This document shows positions 2,255 to 62,889 of a stretch of DNA of 64,000 nt, piece by piece. Below the pieces are notes generated by a model. It saw only the letters and a list, made by a program, of their open reading frames with translations, was not told where the DNA came from and searched no databases. The position numbers and the translations under genes were made by a program. Within the stretch, counting starts at the first letter, position 1. Each line of letters starts with the position of its first letter. Source of the DNA: Termitidicoccus mucosus. GTDB lineage: Bacteria > Verrucomicrobiota > Verrucomicrobiia > Opitutales > Opitutaceae. The DNA lies in contig NZ_CP109796.1 of NCBI RefSeq assembly GCF_038725785.1, forward strand, positions 2,294,001-2,358,000, written 5' to 3'.

Positions 2255-5200
2255 TTACCACGACCAGCGCACGGTGCCATTCACGGTGTGGCGGCTGCGG
2301 TGGCTGGCGATTTCGAAGTCGTAGGCGAGCCCGAGCGAAAGCGAATCGTTCACGATGCTGCGAATGCCGCCGCCGATGCTGTGGCCGCCGCGAGCGTAAT
2401 CGCCGGCGCGGATCGCGTAGGGCGCCTGGGTCGTATCGGAAACGAAGCGCACGACGACATCGTCGGATTTTTCGGAGATGCCCTGACGCCACGCATAGGT
2501 GAGATCCGCCATGCTGGGCCAGCCCCACGGCGTGGTGAATTTCCAACTGGCCTGCACCGAGACGAGGCTTTGCAGGAGGTCCTGATCGACATCCGGATAA
2601 GCGATCGCGCTGTCGCCGCGTTCCTTGTAGGCGCCGAACTCGGCGTTCAGGTAATGCAGGCCGACGGCCGGCTTGAGGGTGAAGGTTTGGGTGGGATGGA
2701 AGACCAAGCCCGCCTCGACGCTGCCGCCATAGTAGTTGGCATTGCTGGTGCCTTCACTGACGCCGCCGTCCGCTTGATGGCGGGTGTTGTCAGACTTCGA
2801 CCAGCCGGCCATGCCGTCGATGCCGATATAGAACCTGCCCCACTTGGCCGCGCCGTAGAGGCCGGCAAATTGCTGGTCGGCCTCGCCTTTGGCATTGGCG
2901 TCGGTCTCCAAGGTGCTGCCGGCAAAGCCGCCGTAAACGCCCATCAGGTATTTGCGGTTCTTGGAGAGCGCGTCGAAACCGACGACCACGCCGTAGGTGT
3001 CCTCGGTGTGCCCGTATTGGTCGGCTGTCTCGTCGTATTCGGCCGAAGACGCGAAGCCGCGCATCCACAGCCCGTTGATCTTGGAGGAACGATTCGCCTC
3101 GATGACCGGGAGCAGGAAACTCTCGCTCATGCGATTATAGACGGCGGACATCGCGGCCGTCATGGCATCGAAAGTCATCGAGACCTGAACGGTGGGATCG
3201 AAGGAGAGCGTGATGAGCTCGATGTCGCCGTTGTCGGTCGCCCTCCACTGGACCATCTTGTTCGGTCCCTTGTCGAGGACCAGGGCGCCCTGCCGGTCGA
3301 TGGTGCCGAAGCCATCCTCCACGAGATCGTATATTCCATCCGCCACGCGACCGGCGAAACCGATCACCGCGCCATCCTCAAGCGTCAGCACCCCGCCGGT
3401 AAGGTCGAACTTGTTCACGGCTCCATTGAGCCCGTAGAGCAGCTTTCCTCCCGCAGCCACGGTCACACTACCGACGCGAAGCGCGTTGGTGGTCGTGCTG
3501 TGCCCGTAGGAAACATACAACGCGGACGTGGGATCGATGTATACATGCGAGGTGGTGCTGCCGAGGGCATGGACGCTCGAGGTCGGCAGCACGGTGGAAT
3601 TGATGAGGATGAACTCGGACAGACGGTTGCCGGAATTGCCGAAGGCAAAGTTGCTGTCGCGCACCGCCACAATGCCGCCGCCGGTGATGGCAGAGTTGTA
3701 GGTTCCGCTGGTGATGGTGTTGAACTCCAGAACCGCCGAGGACGACGAGAAGCTAACGACTCCCGAGCCCAGGGCGGAGAGGTTGTTCTTTATGATCAGG
3801 CGCCCTTCGCTGATGCCGGTCGTTCCGGTGCCGCGCGTGCTGACACCGGAAAGCGTGAGCGCGCCGCTGCCAGTCTTTATGATGTGGCCCGCGCCGGTGA
3901 GCGCGCCGGAGAACTCGGAGATGTAATGCTCCTCCGCCGTCAGCGTGAGCGTGGCGCCGCCGAGGTCGAGCGTGCCCGCGCCGTGGAGATGGCGGAGCGT
4001 CTGGTCCGCGCCGCCGGTCTCGAAGGTCGCGCCGGCGGAAATCGAGACACCTGCGCTGTCCTTGAAAATGTCGGCGCGCGCCGCGCGGGTGACGCCCGAC
4101 GCAAGCATGGTGATTCCCGTGTAGGTGTTGCTGCCGGAAAGAACGATGGTGCCGCTGGCCCGCACCCTCAGGCCGCCCGAGCCGCTGATGCCGATGGTGA
4201 AGGCATTGTCCACGCCGGGGGCGGAGTTATCGAGGATGAGCTGCTTGCCATCGTAAACGGAAATGGAGGTCAACGCGCTGCCGAGGTAAACGCCGTCGGA
4301 ACCGGTGACCAGCGCGGCGCTGTAGGTGGCGTCGGCGACGTTTTCCTTGAGCGTGCCACTACCGGGGACGTATTGCTCGATCACCGAGGTGATGGAACCG
4401 GCGACGGGATTGCCGTCGGTGCCGGTAAGCTTGAGCGTGCCCGCGCCGGTGATGGAGCCGGTGACCGCGATGACTTTTTCGCCGGTGGCGCTGCCGTTGT
4501 CGTGGTCGAGAATGTTGGTGGCGGGAGGCACCGCCGGGTTGAGCTGCGTGGAACTGCCGCCCGAACCCAGGTCCATCATGACGACAGTCTCGGCGCCCGC
4601 GCTGCCGGTGTTGAGCGTGCCCACGGTGAGGATGCCATCGGGCGAAATCCCGTTCACGGCGAATTGAATCGTGCCGCCATCGAGGGACAGCCCAGCGATG
4701 CTCATGTCGCCGGAGGCTTTGTTGATGTGACTGCCCGCGCCAACGCTGAGTGAAGCAGTGGACAGTTGGGCGGCGGAGCTTGCATCGAGCGTAAAGGAGG
4801 CACTCTCGATGGCCAATGTGCCGGAAAAACCGCCGGTTGAACCTGCGCCGAGCGAGAGGGTGTCGGCGATGCCGGTGAGTTTGACGGCGAGCATGCCGTC
4901 ACCTGTGAGTTGATTGGCGAAGGTGTAGGCGCCTGAAGTTGATTTCGAGAGGCGCAGGATGCCTTCGTCGATATTGAGAGCGATGGTGCCGGCAAGCTTG
5001 TCGGTCGCAATGTCAAGGACGTCCGTCCCCGTCTTGGCGAGGGTGCCGCTGCCCGTGAGGCCGGCCGCGCCGAGCGCTCCGGAAGTCGCGGCCACAAGCG
5101 TGCCGTTCTGGAGTTCAATGCCACCCTTGAAATCATTCGTGCCGGTGGGAGCGAGCGTGAGCGTGCCGGTGCCATTCATGACGAGCTTGCCAGTGGCGCC

Positions 5201-7662: not shown

Positions 7663-10600
7663 TCACCAGGAGAGGCGCACATTGCCGGTGATGGTGTGGC
7701 GGCTGCGGCCGGCGGCGGTCTCGTAGTCGTAGCCGAGACCGAGGGTGGTCATCTTGCCGGCGGCGACGCGCAGGCCGAGGCCGACCATCTGGCCGCCGCG
7801 CGAATAGCCGCCGCTATGGACCGTCATGGGCAGGTCGGGGCGCTCGACAAAGAAGACGGTGATCTCGTCGTCGGAATCGGCGATATTCTGGCGCCAGCCG
7901 TAGCTCAGGTCGAGAAACGCGGGCCAGCCCCACGGCGTCGTGAAGTTCCAGCTTCCCTGCAACGCGACGAGGCTCTGGAGAAGATCCTGGGTGATGTCGG
8001 GATACTGCACGGCGGAGGTGCCGTATTCGCGGTAGGCGTCGAAGGCCACATTCATGTAGTGCAGCCCGATGGAGGGTTTCAGGGTAAACGTCCTCGACGG
8101 CGTGATGAGGCAGCCGATGTCAACGCTGGCGCCATACCACATCGCGTCGCTGGCTCCATTGGTGACAGGGCCGCCGGCATTGAGCGCGCGGGTGTTGTCG
8201 GACTGCGACCAGCCGGCGGCGATGTCGGCCCCGGCGTAGAATTTGCCCCATTTGGCCGCGCCATAAACGCCGAGGAACTGCTGGTCGGCGTCGGCCTTGG
8301 ACTGCGCCCCCTCGGAGTCGAGCTTGCTGTTGGCAAAACCGCCGTAAAGCCCGGCCATGCGCCGGCGGTCGCGGGTGAGCATGTCGTAGCCGACGATGAA
8401 TCCGTAGGTGTCCTCGGAATGGCCGTATTGCTCGGTTGTGTCGTCGTATTCGGCGAAGGTGGCGATGGCCTTCATCCAGAAATTGTCGCGCCGGGCGTTC
8501 CGCTCCGCCTCGGCAAACGGGAGCAGGAAGCTTTCGCTGATGCGGCCGTAAATGGTGTTCATGGCGGCGGTCATCGCGTCGAAGGTCATGGCGATGTCCT
8601 TGCGCGGGTCGGTGGTGAGCTTGGCGATGGCGAGGTCGCCGTCCTCGGTGATGATGAGCGAAACGCCTTTGTTCGCGCCGGCATAGACGTTCACCGCGCC
8701 GAGTTCGCTTTCGAACACCGTCGTGCCGGCGGCCAGGACCTCGTAAACACCGTCGCTGACCACGCCGGCGAGGCCGACGAACGAGCCGTCCTTCAGGGTG
8801 AGCACCCCGCTGGCGCCGAGGGAGAGTCGGTTGATGGAGCCGAACGCGCCGAACAGAAGCCGGCCCGTGTTTTCCACGGTCACATTCGCCGCGTTCATGT
8901 TGAGCGTCGCGCCGGGTGTGGTGGTGATGCTGAGCGTGGAGTTTGCCCCCACGTTGACGCTCACGCCGGTGCCGCCGAGCGCGTTGATGGTGCCGGCGGC
9001 GGTGACGGTGGAGTTGACGAGGTTGAGGTTGCGGATGCGGGTCGCGCTGTTGCGAAACTGGAGCGAGCTGTCCACCACGTCGACCGTCGCGGAACTGGCC
9101 AGAATCGCCAGGCTGTAGGTGCCGCCAATTATCCCGTTGAATTCGAGCGCGGCGTTGGCCGCGACATTGATGGTGCCGCTGGTGCCGAGTGACTGCGCGC
9201 CGCGCGCCACGAGGCGTCCGGCATTCACGTTGGTGATGCTGAGCGCCCCGCGCGCGTCGGCGGCGGAAAGGGTGAGCGTGCCGGAACCGTTCTTGGTCAG
9301 CATGCCCGTGCCCGAAAGCGTCGTGGTGAGAACGGTGTCGGACGCCGTGTTTAATATAAGCTCGCCGTTGGCGAGCTCCACTTTCCCGCTGCCCGTGAGC
9401 TGTTTGATATTCTGGACATATCCGCCAAGGTCGAAGACCGCGCCCGCGCCGATTTCCACGGAGGCGCTGTTCTTGAAAATGTCGCCGGTTCCCGCCCGGG
9501 CGACGCCCGAGGCGATCTGCGTGGCTCCCGTGTAGGTGTTGGCCCCGGCGATGACGGCGGTGCCGGTGGTCTGGATGCTCACCCCGCCCGCGCCGGTGAT
9601 GACGGCGGACAGGGTTTTGTCGGCGGCCTGGTCGGGATTGAGGACGAGTTGTTGTCCGGCATGCACGTCGATGGACTGGAGGCCGGCCCCGACATAGAGG
9701 CCATCGGGCTGGACGCCGGCCATGAAACCATAAACTCCGTCGGCTACCGTGGCGCCGTCCTGCGTGATGGCGACCGTGGAACTGCTGACGACCGCGTTGC
9801 CCGACAGATCGACGAGCCTGAGCGTGCCCGCACCGTCGATGTGGGCGGCGTCCACCGCCTTGATGCCGCCGGAGGCCGCGTCCTGATCGAACAGATTGTC
9901 GGGAGCCGGAGCGGGATTCGGCAATGTGCCGCTCACCGCGAGGATGGCGGGATCGACCATGATGTCGGTCGTCACTCCGGCCTCGCCGGTATGGAGCGTG
10001 TCCACGGTGAGCACGCCGTCCACCGAATCGGCGGTCGTGGCCAGTTTGAATGAGCCTCCATTGAGATGGAGTCCATGCATGGACATCGCGCCGGCGGCTT
10101 TGCCGACAACGCTGTTCCCACCGACGACGAGGGTGGCGTTGGCGAGTTGCACCGCGGCGGCGGCATCGAGCGTGAAGGACGCATCGCCTATGCTCAACGC
10201 GCCGGCAAAACCGGAAGCCACACCGGCGCCCAGCGTGAGCGTGTCCGAAACGCCGGAAAGGCGGATGTCCAGCATGCCGGCGCCGGTTAACTTGTTTACT
10301 ATATTGTAGGAGCCCGCGGCCGGCGGCACCAGGCGGATGACCCCCTCGCCAATATCCAGTCCCGCGATGGTGGCCAGCACGGCTCCATTTATCTGGAGGA
10401 CGCCTGAACCGAGTTTGCCCAGCGTGCCGCTGCCCGTGATGGCACCGGCCCACGCGGCATCATTGGCGCCCGTGTCGACAGCGATGGAGCCGGCGCCGAG
10501 ATCGAGGGCATTGTTGACGGTGTGACCGGCGAGATCGACGCGCAGCACCGGCACCGATGAGGCGGACGCGCCGGCGGTGACCGTGCCGGCGCCAAGCGCA

Positions 10601-32320: not shown

Positions 32321-34519
32321 TCAGCCACCGTTGGCTTCCGCCCGCGTGCCGCGCCGCTTGCGCCACACGCTCCAGCCGACGATCAGGGCCGCGACAATCA
32401 TCAGGCTCACCGTTCCCGGCTCCGGCGACGTCGGAACCTCGCCGCCGGCGGGCGCGCGCTCGCTCACGCCCGCCGGAAGCGGATTGGGCTGCGTGACTTT
32501 TTCCGCGCGCTCCCGCACCTCGCGCGGCGTGGTGTCCACCGCGACGAACGAGGTGAACCTCGTCAGCAGGTTGTATTTCAACCCCAGGCGCACGATCTCC
32601 GCCTTCTGCCTGTCCGCCTCGAAACGAATCGCGTGCAAGTCCTCCAGCCCGGTCAGCCGCTCGCGCGCCCACAGGTGCGCCAGCGCCCCGCTCCCGTCCA
32701 GCCGCACCGCGTCCGCCACGTCGATTTCCGCGTTCCATGCGCCGGCGCCCGTCAGCCCTGACAGGCGCACCTTGCCCGTCGCGGCCCCGTGCCATTTTCC
32801 GACCATCATGACCGGGCGTTGCGCCAGCACGTCGGGCTGCGCGGCGGGAATGAGTTCTCCCGTGGAAAAACCCTCGAATGCCGTTCGCACATGCGTGAGC
32901 ACGGGGGCCTCGATCATCCGGCGGAATTTCGCCGCCGCCGCCGCCGCGCGGTCCTTGCCGTCCACCACCGCCGGTTCCGAGCGGCCCGCCCGCGCGAGCC
33001 GCTCGATCAACTCGCGATTCACCGCCGCGCCGATGCCAAACGCGAACAGGTTCGCCTCGCCCAGCCGCGCCCGCACCAGCGCGTAGGCCTCGGCCTCCAC
33101 GTCCACGTAACCGTCCGTGACGACCACGATGCTGCGCGACACGCCCGGACGCGCCGGCAGGGACAATACGCGCTCCAGCGCGGGCAGCAGTTCGGTCGCC
33201 CCGCCGTAGTCGCCGTATTTGCGCCCGGCCTCGAACAGCGCCAGCGCCGCCGCGATGTTTTCCGGCGTCGCCGCCACCGGCCCGTCGAAAAGCATGCGGC
33301 TCGACCCGGAAAAGAGCTGCACGTTGAACGTGTCGGCCTCGTGCAACGACACCAGCAATTCCTCCAGCAGGCGCGTCGAGACATCCAGCGGGAAACCCCA
33401 CATCGAGCCCGACACATCCATCACGAACACATAGTCGCGCGGCGGCACCAGCGCCGGCGTCACGCGCGCCGGAGGCTGCACCGTGAGGAGGAAAAATTTT
33501 TCGCCATTCCATTCGTCGATCATCAATCCTCCGGCCAGCGCGTCACCCGTCAGCCGGTAGCGCAGGATGAAATCGCGGTTCATCACCGGCGCGCCGTCCC
33601 CGCCCGGCGGCAGCGTCACCCGCACGCGCCCTCCCGCCCCGTCCGCCCCGCCTTCCCCGCTTGTCCGCACGCAGTGCGAAACGCACTCCACGGCGCGGAC
33701 CGGCACCGGTGCGACGATCTCTGCGTTCAGCGCAAACACTGGCTCGTATTCAGCCCCGCCGCGTGATGGGGGATTTTCGATTCTCGATTTTCGATTTTCG
33801 ATTGGGGAGCTTCCGCTCCCATTTGCATCCGGCGCGGCAGCGCCTTCAATCGAAAATCGAGAATCGAAAATCGAAAATTCACCGCCGCGCGTGTAGCGCG
33901 GGCCGACCACGGTCGGGAAAACCCATTCGTATTCGCCATCCGCCGGCACGAGCAGCTCATTGTAGCGCAGTTCCACCCGCACCGTGTCGCCGGGCAGGAT
34001 GTTGGCGACGTTCATTTCAAACACATTGCTGCGGCTCGACTCCAGCAGCGACGCGGTTTTCCCCTCGCGCTTCGCGACCTCGTAAGTCTTGCGTGCCTCC
34101 TCCTTTTCCTTGACCTGCGCCTCGATGCGGCGCCCGCCGACGGTCATTGTCATCCCGTGCACCGCCGCGCGCGTCGAGCCGGGGAAAATGTAACGCGCCT
34201 CCAGCGGAGTCCCGCCCTCGTTCTGGTAGGTCTGCACCACGCGCACCTCGGCGATCACGCCCGCGAGCGTGGCGTCCACCTCGGTGCTCTTGAGCGGCAG
34301 GGCGTCCACGCCGGGCTCCGCGCCCCGCACCTGGAAATAGGGCGAGAGCGGTTCGTCCCCCGCGCCGCGTCCGCCGTCATTCGCGCGCGCGGACACGGCT
34401 GCGAACACCACCGCCGCAACCGCCGCCACGAGCCAGAACCCAAAATCCCGCGACACCGCGCAATCGCGCGAGCCGCCGGACGATTTCACCGCGATCTTGA
34501 CCGGAGAGTGTGTTTCCAT
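32321..34519 (-). CDS. VIT and VWA domain protein with PEP-CTERM sorting signal
   Basis: 732 residues. One N-terminal hydrophobic segment (about residues 28-45) serves as signal. A VIT domain (about 70-205) contains 'EVRVVQTYQNEGGTPLEARYIFPG' features and 'KEKEEARKTYEVAKREGK'. A VWA domain starts at about 362 with the MIDAS motif D368-x-S370-x-S372 ('FVMDVSGSMWG'). The C-terminus is 'SPEPGTVSLMIVAALIVG', hydrophobic, then 'WRKRRGTRAEANGG', a PEP-CTERM tripartite tail. Residues 213-251 ('[18 protein letters not shown]' to 'IENRKSRIENPP') are encoded by inverted heptamer element A1 and look like an in-frame insertion between VIT and VWA. It lies directly upstream of an exosortase gene, so it is the likely dedicated substrate. 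Bacteroidetes XrtN systems pair an exosortase with a VIT protein in a similar way. Ligand unknown. Confidence 0.9.
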   Translation of the reverse strand: METHSPVKIAVKSSGGSRDCAVSRDFGFWLVAAVAAVVFAAVSARANDGGRGAGDEPLSPYFQVRGAEPGVDALPLKSTEVDATLAGVIAEVRVVQTYQNEGGTPLEARYIFPGSTRAAVHGMTMTVGGRRIEAQVKEKEEARKTYEVAKREGKTASLLESSRSNVFEMNVANILPGDTVRVELRYNELLVPADGEYEWVFPTVVGPRYTRGGEFSIFDSRFSIEGAAAPDANGSGSSPIENRKSRIENPPSRGGAEYEPVFALNAEIVAPVPVRAVECVSHCVRTSGEGGADGAGGRVRVTLPPGGDGAPVMNRDFILRYRLTGDALAGGLMIDEWNGEKFFLLTVQPPARVTPALVPPRDYVFVMDVSGSMWGFPLDVSTRLLEELLVSLHEADTFNVQLFSGSSRMLFDGPVAATPENIAAALALFEAGRKYGDYGGATELLPALERVLSLPARPGVSRSIVVVTDGYVDVEAEAYALVRARLGEANLFAFGIGAAVNRELIERLARAGRSEPAVVDGKDRAAAAAAKFRRMIEAPVLTHVRTAFEGFSTGELIPAAQPDVLAQRPVMMVGKWHGAATGKVRLSGLTGAGAWNAEIDVADAVRLDGSGALAHLWARERLTGLEDLHAIRFEADRQKAEIVRLGLKYNLLTRFTSFVAVDTTPREVRERAEKVTQPNPLPAGVSERAPAGGEVPTSPEPGTVSLMIVAALIVGWSVWRKRRGTRAEANGG
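33771..33880 (-). repeat. Heptamer-repeat inverted element A1, in frame inside the VIT/VWA gene
   Basis: The left arm (33771-33805) is built of CGATTYT heptamers; the right arm (33846-33880) is the near-complement. The centre, read in gene sense, is GCGCTGCCGCGCC, then a variable part, then GGAGCGGAAGCTCC, matching the cores of A2 (37347-37388) and D (59553-59594). An 8-nt CCGCCGCG occurs on both flanks and could be a target duplication, though the context is GC-rich. Confidence 0.85.
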
Positions 34520-36232: not shown

Positions 36233-36330
36233 CCAAAAATCGTTCTCGTTCCTCATTCTCTCGTTCTTGAAACGCCACGAAGAAAAAAGAGAGAACAAGA
36301 ACGAGCAAGAGAACGAGAACGATTTTTTGG
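36233..36330. repeat. Hexamer-repeat inverted element B2, between guaB and menC
   Basis: The right arm (36293-36330) on the minus strand reads CCAAAAAATCGTTCTCGTTC and continues with CTTGCTCGTTCTTGTTC. The left arm (36233-36269) is the near-complement. The minus-strand sequence matches the left arm of B1 inside the exosortase gene at nearly every position, but here the element is intergenic, in the divergent promoter region. Confidence 0.8.
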
Positions 36331-36359
36331 GGTGACGGGCAAGGCGGCGCGGTGGCACG

Positions 36360-37556
36360 ATGCGGAGGATGAGCGCCGAGATTTACTCCATGACGTTTCG
36401 CCGTTACTCGCTGCCTTTCCGGCAGCCGGTGCGGACGGCACACGGCGCATGGACGCGGCGCGAGGGCGTGATTGTGCGGCTGTCCAACGAACGCGGCTCG
36501 ACGGGATTGGGCGAGGCGGCGCCGATTCCGTGGTTCGGAACGGAAACCGCGGACGAGGCGGCGGCGGCATGCGAGCGGCTGGGCGCGCGGGTGAGCCGGG
36601 AGCAGATCGAAGCGATCCCGGAACGGCTGGGATGCCTGAAGTTCGCGCTGGCGTCGGCCCGGGCGGAATGCGCGGCGGCGGACGGCGTGGATGCTGGGCC
36701 TGACGACTACCTGACGGTCGCCGCGCTCCTGCCGGCGGGCCGGGCGGCGCTGGAAGTCGCGGCTCAACGGGCGGAGGCGGGATTTCGCACGTTCAAGTGG
36801 AAGGTCGGCGTGGCGGACGCCCTCGATGAATTGGTGCTCCTCGACGACTTGCTGGCCGCGCTGCCGGCAGGGGCGCGGCTGCGCCTGGATGCAAACGGAG
36901 CCTGGGACCGGCGGACGGCGGAACGCTGGCTGGGCCGGTGCGCGGATTTGCCCATGGTGGAATTTATCGAGCAGCCGGTCGCGGCGGCGACCCCGGACCG
37001 CGAAACCGATGCAAGGGCGCGGTCGAATGCGATGGATCTGCTGCTGGGGCTGGCCGGGGATTTTCCGGTGCCGCTGGCGCTCGATGAATCGGTCGCGAGT
37101 TCGCGCGACGTGGCCCACTGGCTGGATGCGGGATGGCCGGGATTGTTTGTGCTGAAACCCTCGTTGCTCGGCGACGCGGCCGGCACGCTCGGACGGCTGC
37201 GGGCGGCGGGAGGCGACGCGCAAGACGGCGGAAGAGTCGTGTTTTCATCGGCCCTGGAAACAGCCGTGGGCGCGCGCGCGGCGCTCGAATGGGCGTTGCG
37301 GTGGAAGGCGGAAAATTTTCGATTTTCGATTCTCGATTCTCGATTGGGCGCTGCCGCGCCGGATTCCCAAATGGAGCGGCAGCTCCATCAATCGAGAATC
37401 GAGAATCGAAAATCGAAAATTTTCCGCGCCGCCGGTTTCGGCGTGTGGCCTTTGTTTGAGGATGCGCGGTTCAACGGACCGGAAGCCGCGCCGTTTGTGC
37501 GCGCGCGGGACATCCGGCTTCTGGACGGGGAGGCGGCATGGAACGCCCTGAGCTGA
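36360..37556 (+). CDS. menC: o-Succinylbenzoate synthase-like enolase-superfamily enzyme
   Basis: 398 residues; the ATG at 36360 is used, with 36369 as an alternative. The enolase-superfamily catalytic residues are present in order: K146 and K148 ('FKWKVG'), metal ligands D177 ('LDANGAW'), E204 ('EQP') and D242 ('LDES'), and K266 ('FVLKPS'). MenC dehydrates SHCHC to o-succinylbenzoate in menaquinone synthesis. The assignment is supported by the overlapping downstream menE-like gene (19 bp overlap, so translational coupling is likely). Residues about 318-356 ('[18 protein letters not shown]' to '[11 protein letters not shown]') are encoded by heptamer element A2 inserted in frame just before the last barrel segment ('[15 protein letters not shown]'). 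No stop or frameshift results, so the enzyme may still be active. Confidence 0.88.
37308..37427. repeat. Heptamer-repeat inverted element A2, in frame inside menC
   Basis: The arms 37308-37346 and 37389-37427 are a perfect 39-bp inverted repeat composed of CGATTTT/CGATTCT heptamers after an AAAATTTT start. The 42-nt centre begins GGCGCTGCCGCGCC and ends GGAGCGGCAGCTCCAT, matching A1 and D. The total of 120 nt equals 40 codons, open in the menC frame. Confidence 0.92.
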
Positions 37557-38752
37557 GACGGCTGGCCCTCGAAACAGGCCGCGCGGTGGAGCGGGGGGAT
37601 TTTGTGTTTTTGTGCGACCCGGAATGGGGCGCGGCCGAGCGGGCGGAGTTTGGGCAAGTGGCGCGGGAGGCCGGGGGCATCGCCGCAAAGCGCGGATGGC
37701 TGTGCCTCTCGACCGGCGGGACGAGCGGGCGGGTGCGGTTTGCGCGGCATGACGAGGAGACGCTGGGCGCGGCGGCGCGGGGATTCTGCGGGCATTTCGG
37801 GCTGGAGCGGGTGAACGCGGTGGATGTGTTGCCCGCGCATCACGTGAGCGGATTCATGGCGCGGGTGCGCTGCGCGGCCACGGGCGGCATCCATCTGCCC
37901 TGGGCATGGAAACGACTGGAAGCGGGGGATTGCCCTGAGCCGCCCTCGACGGACGGCTGGGTGCTCTCGCTGGTGCCCACCCAATTGCAACGGCTGCTCG
38001 GCGACGCGGACGCGGCACGGCGCGGGCGCGCGGCGGACTGGCTGCGCCGCTTCGAGGTGATTTTTCTCGGCGGGGGCCCGGTGTGGCCTTCGCTTGCGGA
38101 TGCGGCCGCCCGGGAAGGGCTGCGGATATCGCTCAGCTACGGCATGACCGAAACCGCCGCGATGGTGACGGCGCTGCGTCCCGGCGAGTTTGCGGAAGGC
38201 GCGAGAAGCTGCGGGACGGCGCTGCCGCACGCACGGGTGGAACTGGTGGACGAGGAGACCGGCGATGTGTATCCAAAATCAAGATACGAAGGCCGCGTCG
38301 GGCGGGTGCGCATCGCCGGCCCGAGCGTGTTTCGCGGCTACCTGCCGGCAAGCGCCGGCGCGGCCGGGCCTGACGGCGTCCTGATGACCGAGGACCTGGC
38401 GTTCCTCGATGCGCGCGGCGGTCTCAACATCGCGGGACGCCGCGACGCGGTCATCATCACGGGCGGCAAAAAAGTGCTGCCGGGGGAGGTCGAGGCGGTG
38501 CTGCGGTCGAGCGGCGAATTTTCCGATGTCGCGGTGGTGGGCGTGCCGGACGCGGAATGGGGCGAGCGCGTGGTGGCGTGCTATCCCGGAGGAGACCCCG
38601 AGCCCGACTGGGAGGCGGTCGGGCGGGCCATGCATTCATTGTCGGGCTACAAACGCCCCGCACGCTTCATCCCGATGACGCCCTGGCCGCGCAACGCGCA
38701 GGGCAAGGTCAGCCGCGCGCGCCTGCGCGCCCTCGCCGCCGCCCCGGAATGA
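37538..38752 (+). CDS. menE: AMP-dependent ligase, o-succinylbenzoate-CoA ligase-like
   Basis: 404 residues, shorter than most acyl-CoA synthetases, as some MenE proteins are. Adenylate-forming motifs are clear: P-loop 'LSTGGTSGRVRF' (about residue 57), 'SLSYGMTETAAMV' (A5-type), 'MTEDLAFLDARGGLNIAGRR' with the conserved Asp, and the C-terminal lysine loop 'PRNAQGKVSR'. It would activate o-succinylbenzoate with ATP and CoA for ring closure by MenB. It starts 19 bp inside menC and reads in the same direction, giving an operon with a consecutive menaquinone step. Without menC the family call would be weaker, because the substrate pocket cannot be read here. Confidence 0.87.
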   Translation: MERPELRRLALETGRAVERGDFVFLCDPEWGAAERAEFGQVAREAGGIAAKRGWLCLSTGGTSGRVRFARHDEETLGAAARGFCGHFGLERVNAVDVLPAHHVSGFMARVRCAATGGIHLPWAWKRLEAGDCPEPPSTDGWVLSLVPTQLQRLLGDADAARRGRAADWLRRFEVIFLGGGPVWPSLADAAAREGLRISLSYGMTETAAMVTALRPGEFAEGARSCGTALPHARVELVDEETGDVYPKSRYEGRVGRVRIAGPSVFRGYLPASAGAAGPDGVLMTEDLAFLDARGGLNIAGRRDAVIITGGKKVLPGEVEAVLRSSGEFSDVAVVGVPDAEWGERVVACYPGGDPEPDWEAVGRAMHSLSGYKRPARFIPMTPWPRNAQGKVSRARLRALAAAPE

Positions 38753-45589: not shown

Positions 45590-45701
45590 GCGTGGCCCGG
45601 CGGGTTGCGTGGCACGGGCGTCCCGCCCGTGCTTCGCGGTGCCACCCCCCGGAAAACATGGGCGGGACGCCCATGCCACACAATCCCGCGGGCCGCCCGA
45701 G
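45590..45701. repeat. GC-rich inverted element H between thrC and the histidine kinase gene
   Basis: The left arm (45590-45631) ends in ACGGGCGTCCCGCCCGTG and the right arm (45658-45701) begins CATGGGCGGGACGCCCATG. The outer parts (TGGCCCGGCGGGTTGCGTGGC against its near-complement) also pair. Each arm contains its own GGGCGTCCCGCCC palindrome. The arms are about four-fifths identical. Confidence 0.8.
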
Positions 45702-51952: not shown

Positions 51953-52060
51953 TTCTCTTTATTCTTTCCTCTTTATCTTTCTTCTTTCTCTTCCGTTTCC
52001 ACGCCCTGCGGCTCTCTTCCTGACGAAAGAAGAAAGATAAAGAGGAAAGAATAAAGAGAA
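51953..52060. repeat. Heptamer-repeat inverted element C1
   Basis: Arms 51953-51988 and 52025-52060 are a perfect 36-bp inverted repeat of pyrimidine heptamers (TCTTTAT, TCTTTCC, TCTTTAT and so on). The 36-nt spacer holds CGTTTCCACGCCCTGCGG. It lies between two minus-strand genes, the MFS gene and the exosortase gene downstream of it. Confidence 0.9.
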
Positions 52061-57431: not shown

Positions 57432-57524
57432 CTTCTTTCCTCTTTATTCTTTATCTTTCTCTTTCGTCAGGACCGAAACGGGGAGAAAGAGGAAAGAGAA
57501 AGAATAAAGAGGAAAGAGAAAGCA
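57432..57524. repeat. Heptamer-repeat inverted element C2
   Basis: The left arm (57432-57469) is CTTTCCTCTTTATTCTTTAT-type pyrimidine sequence; the right arm (57483-57524) is its near-complement. The spacer is short (GGACCGAAACGGG). The same arm vocabulary as C1 (TCTTTAT, TCTTTCC), but with imperfect pairing. It lies in the 140-bp gap upstream of the HEAT gene. Confidence 0.8.
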
Positions 57525-59505: not shown

Positions 59506-59641
59506 GGGAGGGGGAGGAATTAATAATTAAGAATTAGAAATTAAGAATTGGGGCGCTGCTGCGCCAGCTTGGATGAAGGAGTGGAGCGGCACCTCCCAAT
59601 TCTTAATTTCTAATTCTTAATTATTAATTCCTCCCCCTCCC
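59506..59641. repeat. Heptamer-repeat inverted element D
   Basis: Arms 59506-59552 and 59595-59641 are a perfect 47-bp inverted repeat. Inside a GGGAGGGGGAGG end lie the heptamers AATTAAT, AATTAAG, AATTAGA, AATTAAG and AATTGGG. The 42-nt spacer (GCGCTGCTGCGCC ... GGAGCGGCACCT) has the same length and ends as the A2 spacer although the arms are unrelated. It ends 5 bp before the ATG of the next gene. Confidence 0.95.
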
Positions 59642-61289: not shown

Positions 61290-61368
61290 GGAGGGCCGAG
61301 CTCCCGCGAGGCCGTCGCAGGGAAACGTTGCCTGTGACCGCGACGGCCTCGCGGGAGCTCGGCCCTCC
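61290..61368. repeat. Perfect 29-bp inverted repeat F
   Basis: GGAGGGCCGAGCTCCCGCGA... (61290-61318) pairs perfectly with 61340-61368 around 21 nt. 'GATACCATTTCC' lies just outside the left end, as next to element G. The 317-bp gap 61260-61576 contains only this element and the smaller hairpin at 61387-61428. Confidence 0.88.
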
Positions 61369-62757: not shown

Positions 62758-62889
62758 ATTATACCATCTCCGACAAAATTTAACATTCAGGTAGGGCGAG
62801 GCGTCCCGCCGAGCCGCAAGCCGCCAACGGCTCGGCGGGACGCCTCGCCCTACCTTGATAAGTCTATAAATTACTGGGAAATGGTATAC
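62758..62889. mobile_element. MITE-like element G with terminal TATACCAT(C/T)TCC repeats and a perfect 27-bp hairpin
   Basis: The inner arms 62790-62816 and 62828-62854 (GGTAGGGCGAGGCGTCCCGC...) are a perfect 27-bp inverted repeat with an 11-nt loop. A/T-rich flanks follow, and the outer ends are TATACCATCTCC (62758 on) and, inverted, TATACCATTTCC (ending 62889). It carries no gene. It fills the gap between the chemoreceptor-like gene and hflX. Confidence 0.75.

Follow-up and report, generated by a model that had tools for sequence, protein, structure and literature searches.

An in-frame, probably translated palindromic element with heptamer-repeat arms in the menC gene of Termitidicoccus mucosus

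We have found that the menC gene of Termitidicoccus mucosus contains a palindromic element, A2, inserted in frame close to its 3' end, and that related elements recur throughout the genome. We consider it very likely that A2 is one copy of a family of non-autonomous mobile palindromes, that it is translated within menC and tolerated by the fold of the enzyme, and that copies elsewhere have behaved in the same way under the filter of selection. The family unit would comprise two arms built of tandem heptamers around a core of one or two GC hairpins. An in-frame palindrome is in itself a known phenomenon; what is new is the type of element and its heptamer-based reading-frame behavior. The least certain part of this explanation is how the copies spread. 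Coordinates refer to the window, by which we mean the whole 64,000-nucleotide stretch analyzed (positions 2,294,001 to 2,358,000 of contig NZ_CP109796.1), and are collected in Table 1.

Table 1. Positions of A2, its host gene and related features (window coordinates except for the last row).
Feature	Position	Strand	Details and basis
menC, o-succinylbenzoate synthase	36360-37556	+	398 codons, A2 in frame; ORF, NCBIfam, Pfam, catalytic residues
Palindromic element A2	37308-37427	.	Heptamer-repeat arms (ATTTTCG/ATTCTCG units); arm complementarity, blastn, RNA fold
A2 left arm	37308-37346	+	Outermost 7 nt (GCGGAAA) outside the family's shared end; arm pairing, flank extension
A2 right arm	37389-37427	+	Inverted copy of left arm
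A2 inner hairpin 1	37347-37360	.	GGCGC-TGCC-GCGCC; core of A2
A2 inner hairpin 2	37373-37386	.	GGAGC-GGCA-GCTCC; core of A2
menE, o-succinylbenzoate-CoA ligase	37538-38752	+	ORF; Pfam AMP-binding; NCBIfam best match NF005660
Heptamer-like palindrome upstream of menC	36238-36334	.	Between guaB-like gene and menC; 27 blastn matches in genome
Element A1, second copy, read through in frame	33772-33878	.	Paired arms; in VIT/VWA gene
VIT/VWA-domain protein gene holding A1	32321-34411	-	Gene call; Pfam VIT + VWA
Related palindrome, ATTAAGA-type arms with stops	59506-59641	.	Core hairpin GGCGCTGCTGCGCC; 47/47 arms; intergenic
leuS element of the T. mucosus genome (G000)	G000:C1:7224789-7224901 (L160 3291-3403)	-	Splits leuS into two frames

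The arms of A2 are complementary at 39 of 39 positions and are separated by a 42-nt core, so that its first-pass annotation as a perfect 120-nt inverted repeat holds for the arms and not for the whole 120 nt. The RNA of this region (37300-37435) is predicted to fold with an energy of -97.5 kcal/mol (z -13.1 against 200 shuffles). The two-hairpin core of the family can be written as GGCGCTGCCGCGCC ... GGAGCGGCAGCTCC.

When A2 was used as a blastn query against its own genome, at least 94 matches on both strands were obtained, corresponding to at least 40 places after merging at 300 nt; the match counts are a lower bound because 40 of 110 candidates were scored. Matches to A2 were found in 14 of the 57 genomes searched, the T. 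mucosus genome included. A survey of the stretches around matches to four elements, together with the window, covered 623,567 distinct bases of the 7.82-Mb contig, and in these 624 kb there are 74 inverted repeats with 7-periodic arms, which are not a random sample, the stretches having been picked by their similarity to the four elements. The heptamer words of the arms vary (ATTTTCG, GCGGAAT, AATTACG, ATTAAGA, the purine-rich AAAGAAT and others), and elements with at least three of these words share the core hairpin. A GG.G. hairpin lies in the interior of 16 of the 22 elements of the AAAATCG class, as against 1 percent of random windows; the core hairpin is absent from the AAAGAAT, AAAGAAG and AAAGAGG classes. 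Scanning with the core pattern GGMGYTNCCRCKCC proved too unspecific for counting copies (69 + 81 among the matches listed, against 62 + 46 for the backward control) and was used for positions only. In other genomes a paired element was seen at eight loci, and at four of these one or two reading frames stay open over a long distance on both sides. Several of these four, judged by eye, are the opposite strand of a gene; only L167, in genome G004, appears convincing, and all were left uncounted.

The window also contains repeats of other kinds. Purine/pyrimidine-rich, heptamer-like palindromes that lack the GC core hairpin lie between genes at 51953-52060 and 57434-57517, and other short, GC-rich, REP-like palindromes without heptamer arms are present at 45609-45679, 61290-61368 and 62789-62855. 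Long direct repeats about 5.4 kb apart (~2257-4224 and 7665-9635) suggest two related large genes side by side.

The leuS gene provides an occupied and an empty site for the same element in sister genomes. Between identical anchors, the distance is 158 nt in G001, 32 nt in G002 and 151 nt in G000, the T. mucosus genome. G002 is thus the empty site, and in G001 the element adds exactly 126 nt within a single 934-codon open frame. In G000 it adds 119 nt, one heptamer less than in G001, and a profile search of this genome found a single leuS, split over two frames. This arrangement reflects either an assembly error, or a gene broken in this lineage, or two cooperating pieces; a split LeuS occurs in Aquifex. 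No target duplication is visible when occupied and empty sequences are compared by eye at this one site.

These observations bear on the origin of the palindromes. One alternative is that there is no mobile element and that each palindrome arises locally, by copying errors at quasi-palindromes. Seven of the 23 paired copies, that in menC included, do have a palindrome that runs 4 to 12 nt past the shared end of the family into copy-specific flank, as if this flank had been inversely copied (permuted pairing gives a mean of 1.1 such copies and a maximum of 5 in 5,000 trials). We nevertheless judge a local origin improbable, since arms and core recur at no fewer than 40 merged places and in other genomes, and since leuS offers a full element opposite an empty site. 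For the core, local copying error is refuted by the shared sequence; growth of the arms could fit it. The extension into the flank suggests either insertion at dyad-symmetric sites or copying of the flank.

If the family is mobile, the most likely route of spread, which we hold with about even confidence, would be the movement of a single-stranded DNA hairpin by an enzyme encoded elsewhere, and copying by template switching would be a distinctly less probable alternative. Spread driven by a RAYT from an adjoining gene was rejected, because none of the seven Y1 transposase (PF01797) matches in the genome has heptamer arms within 1.5 kb; a RAYT acting in trans would still be compatible with this result. 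Correction between the two arms of a palindrome, which would leave shared variants in both, was also rejected: the arms have a similarity of 0.927 within a copy and 0.916 between copies (p 0.07), and in the 23 paired elements 9 arm deviations are mirrored and 42 are one-sided.

The host gene is identified as menC by homology. Two models of o-succinylbenzoate synthase, NF002739 and TIGR01927, match its product with scores that exceed their curated cut-offs, and the product has the Pfam domains MenC_N and MR_MLE_C, in keeping with the earlier view of an otherwise complete synthase. The catalytic residues K146, K148, D177, E204, D242 and K266 are all invariant in an alignment of 49 rows, and the residues downstream of the insert match those of relatives, as expected if the end of the barrel follows it. 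The 398-codon reading frame stays open throughout A2. The insert occupies residues 317-356, placing it in the last fifth of the protein and not, as first annotated, in the last third. Of the 40 added codons claimed for it, none is a stop. Measured against the commonest relative, the protein has a net gain of about 36 residues, since a portion of the 120 nt corresponds in the alignment to residues present in relatives too. ATTTTCG and its complement are stop-free in every frame and the insertion is a multiple of three, so the ribosome would be expected to read through A2, and on the basis of its sequence we infer that MenC with the A2-encoded peptide is probably made by the cell and that the enzyme is still active.

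It is quite improbable that menC is instead a pseudogene, or encodes an inactive enzyme on which nothing depends and in which the insert is tolerated for that reason. Codon usage both before and after the insert is only weakly gene-like (scores of +6 and +3, for 80 or 43 codons), so that the case for menC rests on homology. Set against this, the frame is open, all catalytic residues are kept, the predicted model is well folded, and the gene is present in a single copy, this being the one menC match found in the genome. The gene also overlaps a complete menE, the ATG of which lies 19 nt inside the end of menC; the best NCBIfam match of menE (NF005660) scores 385 bits, under the cut-off of 525.

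We sought to place the insertion in the context of MenC relatives and of a structural model. An alignment of 86 MenC rows, 81 of them distinct since five genomes were fetched twice, contains no comparable insert of A2 residues in any of the 81 distinct relatives, which bears out the expectation of an uninterrupted gene in relatives. The loop concerned has 50 residues here and 14 in 46 of the 81 distinct relatives. It is no longer than 22 residues in 72 of the distinct rows, this shorter group spanning 11 to 22 residues, and long loops of 30, 32, 33, 36, 50 and 55 residues are found in one row each. Those of other Opitutae hold other inserts, and short motifs from the insert matched four cyanobacterial rows, all outside the 14 rows with loops of 20 residues or more. 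Since loop lengths vary in this way between relatives, the site tolerates changes in length. The sister genome G001 gave no menC match in the search, and the G002 contig stops at the MenC insertion site, making G002 uninformative about an empty site. MenC proteins also have inserts elsewhere: G002 MenC (L031, ~700-830) has an in-frame insert of another repeat-like kind in the linker that joins its N-terminal domain to the barrel; in-frame, hairpin-forming inserts occupy the same linker in the MenC of another Opitutaceae MAG (L060 168-1331); and a cyanobacterial MenC (L103 3001-4023) has a hairpin-forming insert, likewise in frame and in the linker before the barrel.

An AlphaFold2 model of MenC built on 49 rows has a mean pLDDT of 91 and a pTM of 0.89, and among solved structures the o-succinylbenzoate synthase 3h7v matches it best (TM-score 0.82 by target). 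The predicted barrel is retained, and the insert appears as a lower-confidence addition: ten-residue pLDDT means are 54, 76 and 75 over residues 321-350 and 83 over 351-360, in a region flanked by values of 91-97. In the model the insert lies between a helix at 302-319 and a strand at 358-361, and itself includes short predicted helices (324-327 and 337-350). In barrels of the MenC kind, the stretch leading from a helix into the next strand is on the face away from the active site. A2 would have landed in a length-variable loop that connects the last long helix to the final strand of the barrel, and the resulting MenC would have about 36 extra residues that its fold tolerates.

A hairpin this stable, located about 110 nt before the menE start, might conceivably have been kept because it is useful, for instance if its RNA form adjusts how much menE is made or if its peptide has a role. 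We think this very unlikely, given that the hairpin is missing from the relatives examined and that other copies lie in unrelated genes without a common context.

Using gene calls from our own codon-usage caller (coding fraction 0.857), 19 of the 74 palindromes are inside called genes and 55 outside. All but two of the 19 are internal and read through, and these 17 copies are distributed over 14 genes; in-gene copies are not all independent, three genes containing two each. The exceptions are a copy close to the end of a BatA-like gene, after which two codons remain, and the leuS copy, which is out of frame and shows that a copy in a gene need not be readable. Arms that are open in all six frames are found more often in genes: 16 of 31 such elements are in genes, compared with 3 of the 43 with other arms (Fisher p 2.2e-5). 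A 59-nt-arm palindrome with the heptamer AAAGATG (L197 4727-4875) is read through in a U32 peptidase gene, yet its arms are not open in all frames. The codon scores flanking the in-gene inserts are clearly positive for most and weak for menC and the A1 host (+32 on one side, +4 downstream). Some encoded peptides recur across copies, for example one of 10 and one of 11 residues. The copies outside genes are often a few bases from a stop codon. In each of the 10 flanking gene pairs tested (10/10) the two genes belong to different, unrelated families, so the copies at these places are not broken genes. We infer from the distribution of copies a filtering role for selection, which would remove from genes those that shift the frame or end translation.

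The same distribution argues against an intron- or bypass-like process in which the message loses A2 or the ribosome jumps over it, leaving an enzyme without the peptide. Skipping could be favored by so stable a hairpin in the message (-97.5 kcal/mol), the out-of-frame leuS copy would need such a fix, and passages of PMC6649704 describe palindromes in yeast mitochondria that are transcribed but skipped. Removal or skipping has no need of an open frame, however, and we regard it as highly improbable, since 17 of the 19 copies in genes are internal with a frame that runs through them and since genes seldom contain arms with stops.

If A2 is translated, it would probably share this fate with copies in a range of host proteins. 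Scoring over the NCBIfam cut-offs are Mfd, ValS, GcvP, UvrA, HrpB and Mpl, and under their cut-offs a SNF2 helicase, a PcrA/UvrD-like protein, a histidine kinase and a GalA-like protein; Pfam adds the U32 peptidase, an amine oxidase, a second UvrA-like protein, a rhamnosidase, the VIT/VWA protein and LeuS. The ValS insert is composite, combining one element with a short piece of host and a further half-element, and lies between the positions of residues 204 and 210 of Thermus ValRS (1gax). It is absent from all 40 ValS rows examined from 35 genomes, in which this region has 19 to 46 residues, compared with 93 here. In GcvP the insert maps between residues 466 and 487 of 4lgl. In Mfd, the loop before VTETELFG contains a family element in T. 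mucosus, an insert in G001 that reads as another heptamer, AAATCCC (as read from the peptide), and a different insert in G002; in G004 there is none of that kind.

Seven is not divisible by three, and an array that gains or loses a heptamer unit shifts the frame of the host. It is therefore conceivable, although we think it rather unlikely to hold in all its parts, that these palindromes are an undescribed mobile class with a shared double-hairpin core and interchangeable heptamer arms, that stop-free versions colonize genes and are translated, and that the arrays act as frame switches, with leuS as a live case. That case would be the T. mucosus leuS, split between its editing half and its KMSKS half, and LeuS would then function either as an enzyme of two pieces or in a fraction of the population.

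Rickettsia is the best-known source of palindromes translated within housekeeping genes. The large genome studied here belongs to another phylum and has a distinct kind of palindrome in high number, in ValS, GcvP, Mfd and UvrA and, in a sister genome, in LeuS. Since the sister genomes provide occupied and empty sites, the uptake by a gene of a random segment of 35-45 residues becomes testable, as does a heptamer array inside a gene as a frame switch. For annotation, odd inserts in these host proteins should be read as repeat DNA and not as domains.

A search of the open-licence literature on heptamers and Verrucomicrobia found no prior description of this element, and several known systems resemble it in part. 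Perfect inverted repeats in the translated genes of Nematomorpha mitochondria, presented in sections of PMC6649704 as distinct from insertion elements and actively kept perfect, share with A2 their position in genes (translation being probable here), whereas the present family is dispersed and gives no sign of arm correction. The P6b repeats of the Nostoc tRNA-Leu intron form, according to extracts of PMC4476775, a stem of degenerate heptamers, TDNGATT, and 80 of the 141 NNNGATT heptamers found here fit this motif, alongside other heptamer words; those repeats sit in the intron of an RNA gene, and the present ones in proteins and intergenic sites. The target site duplication used to recognize a MITE was not seen at leuS, the one site compared by eye. 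A REPIN is a larger hairpin built from a pair of inversely oriented hairpins. The family likewise has two short inverse hairpins, but differs from the REPINs outlined in parts of PMC3116915 by having neither a consistent tag nor a nearby Y1 transposase, none of the seven PF01797 loci being a Y1 gene flanked by the repeat. Intragenic GTAG/CGTC REPs are characterized in portions of PMC3733652 as short tagged stem-loops that mostly encode 20-30 residues, with Opitutus terrae, a member of the Verrucomicrobia, richest in intragenic GTAG repeats, both uvrA genes, DNA ligase and RNA helicases among the hosts and repair genes frequent. UvrA, Mfd, UvrD-like and helicase genes are hosts here too; the arms, in contrast, are long heptamer arrays without a consistent tag, GTAG occurring anywhere in 3, CTAC in 4, CGTC in 2 and GACG in 7 of 32 A2-type elements.

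The parallel with Rickettsia palindromic elements (RPEs) that was drawn at the outset is apt in behavior: both are copy families, partly in genes, in frame and in loops. The tests made here, which compare behavior, do not place A2 in a known RPE family; the phylum is another and the arms are tandem heptamers. RPEs, described by Ogata in 2000 and later, are, as far as the available text of PMC2229807 and PMC6649704 goes, a palindrome family of ~105-146 bp, found in intergenic DNA and also, in frame, in genes for conserved proteins, and activity was kept in the sole enzyme tested, guanylate kinase. The present family is divided in the same manner, with 19 of its 74 members inside called genes and 55 outside.
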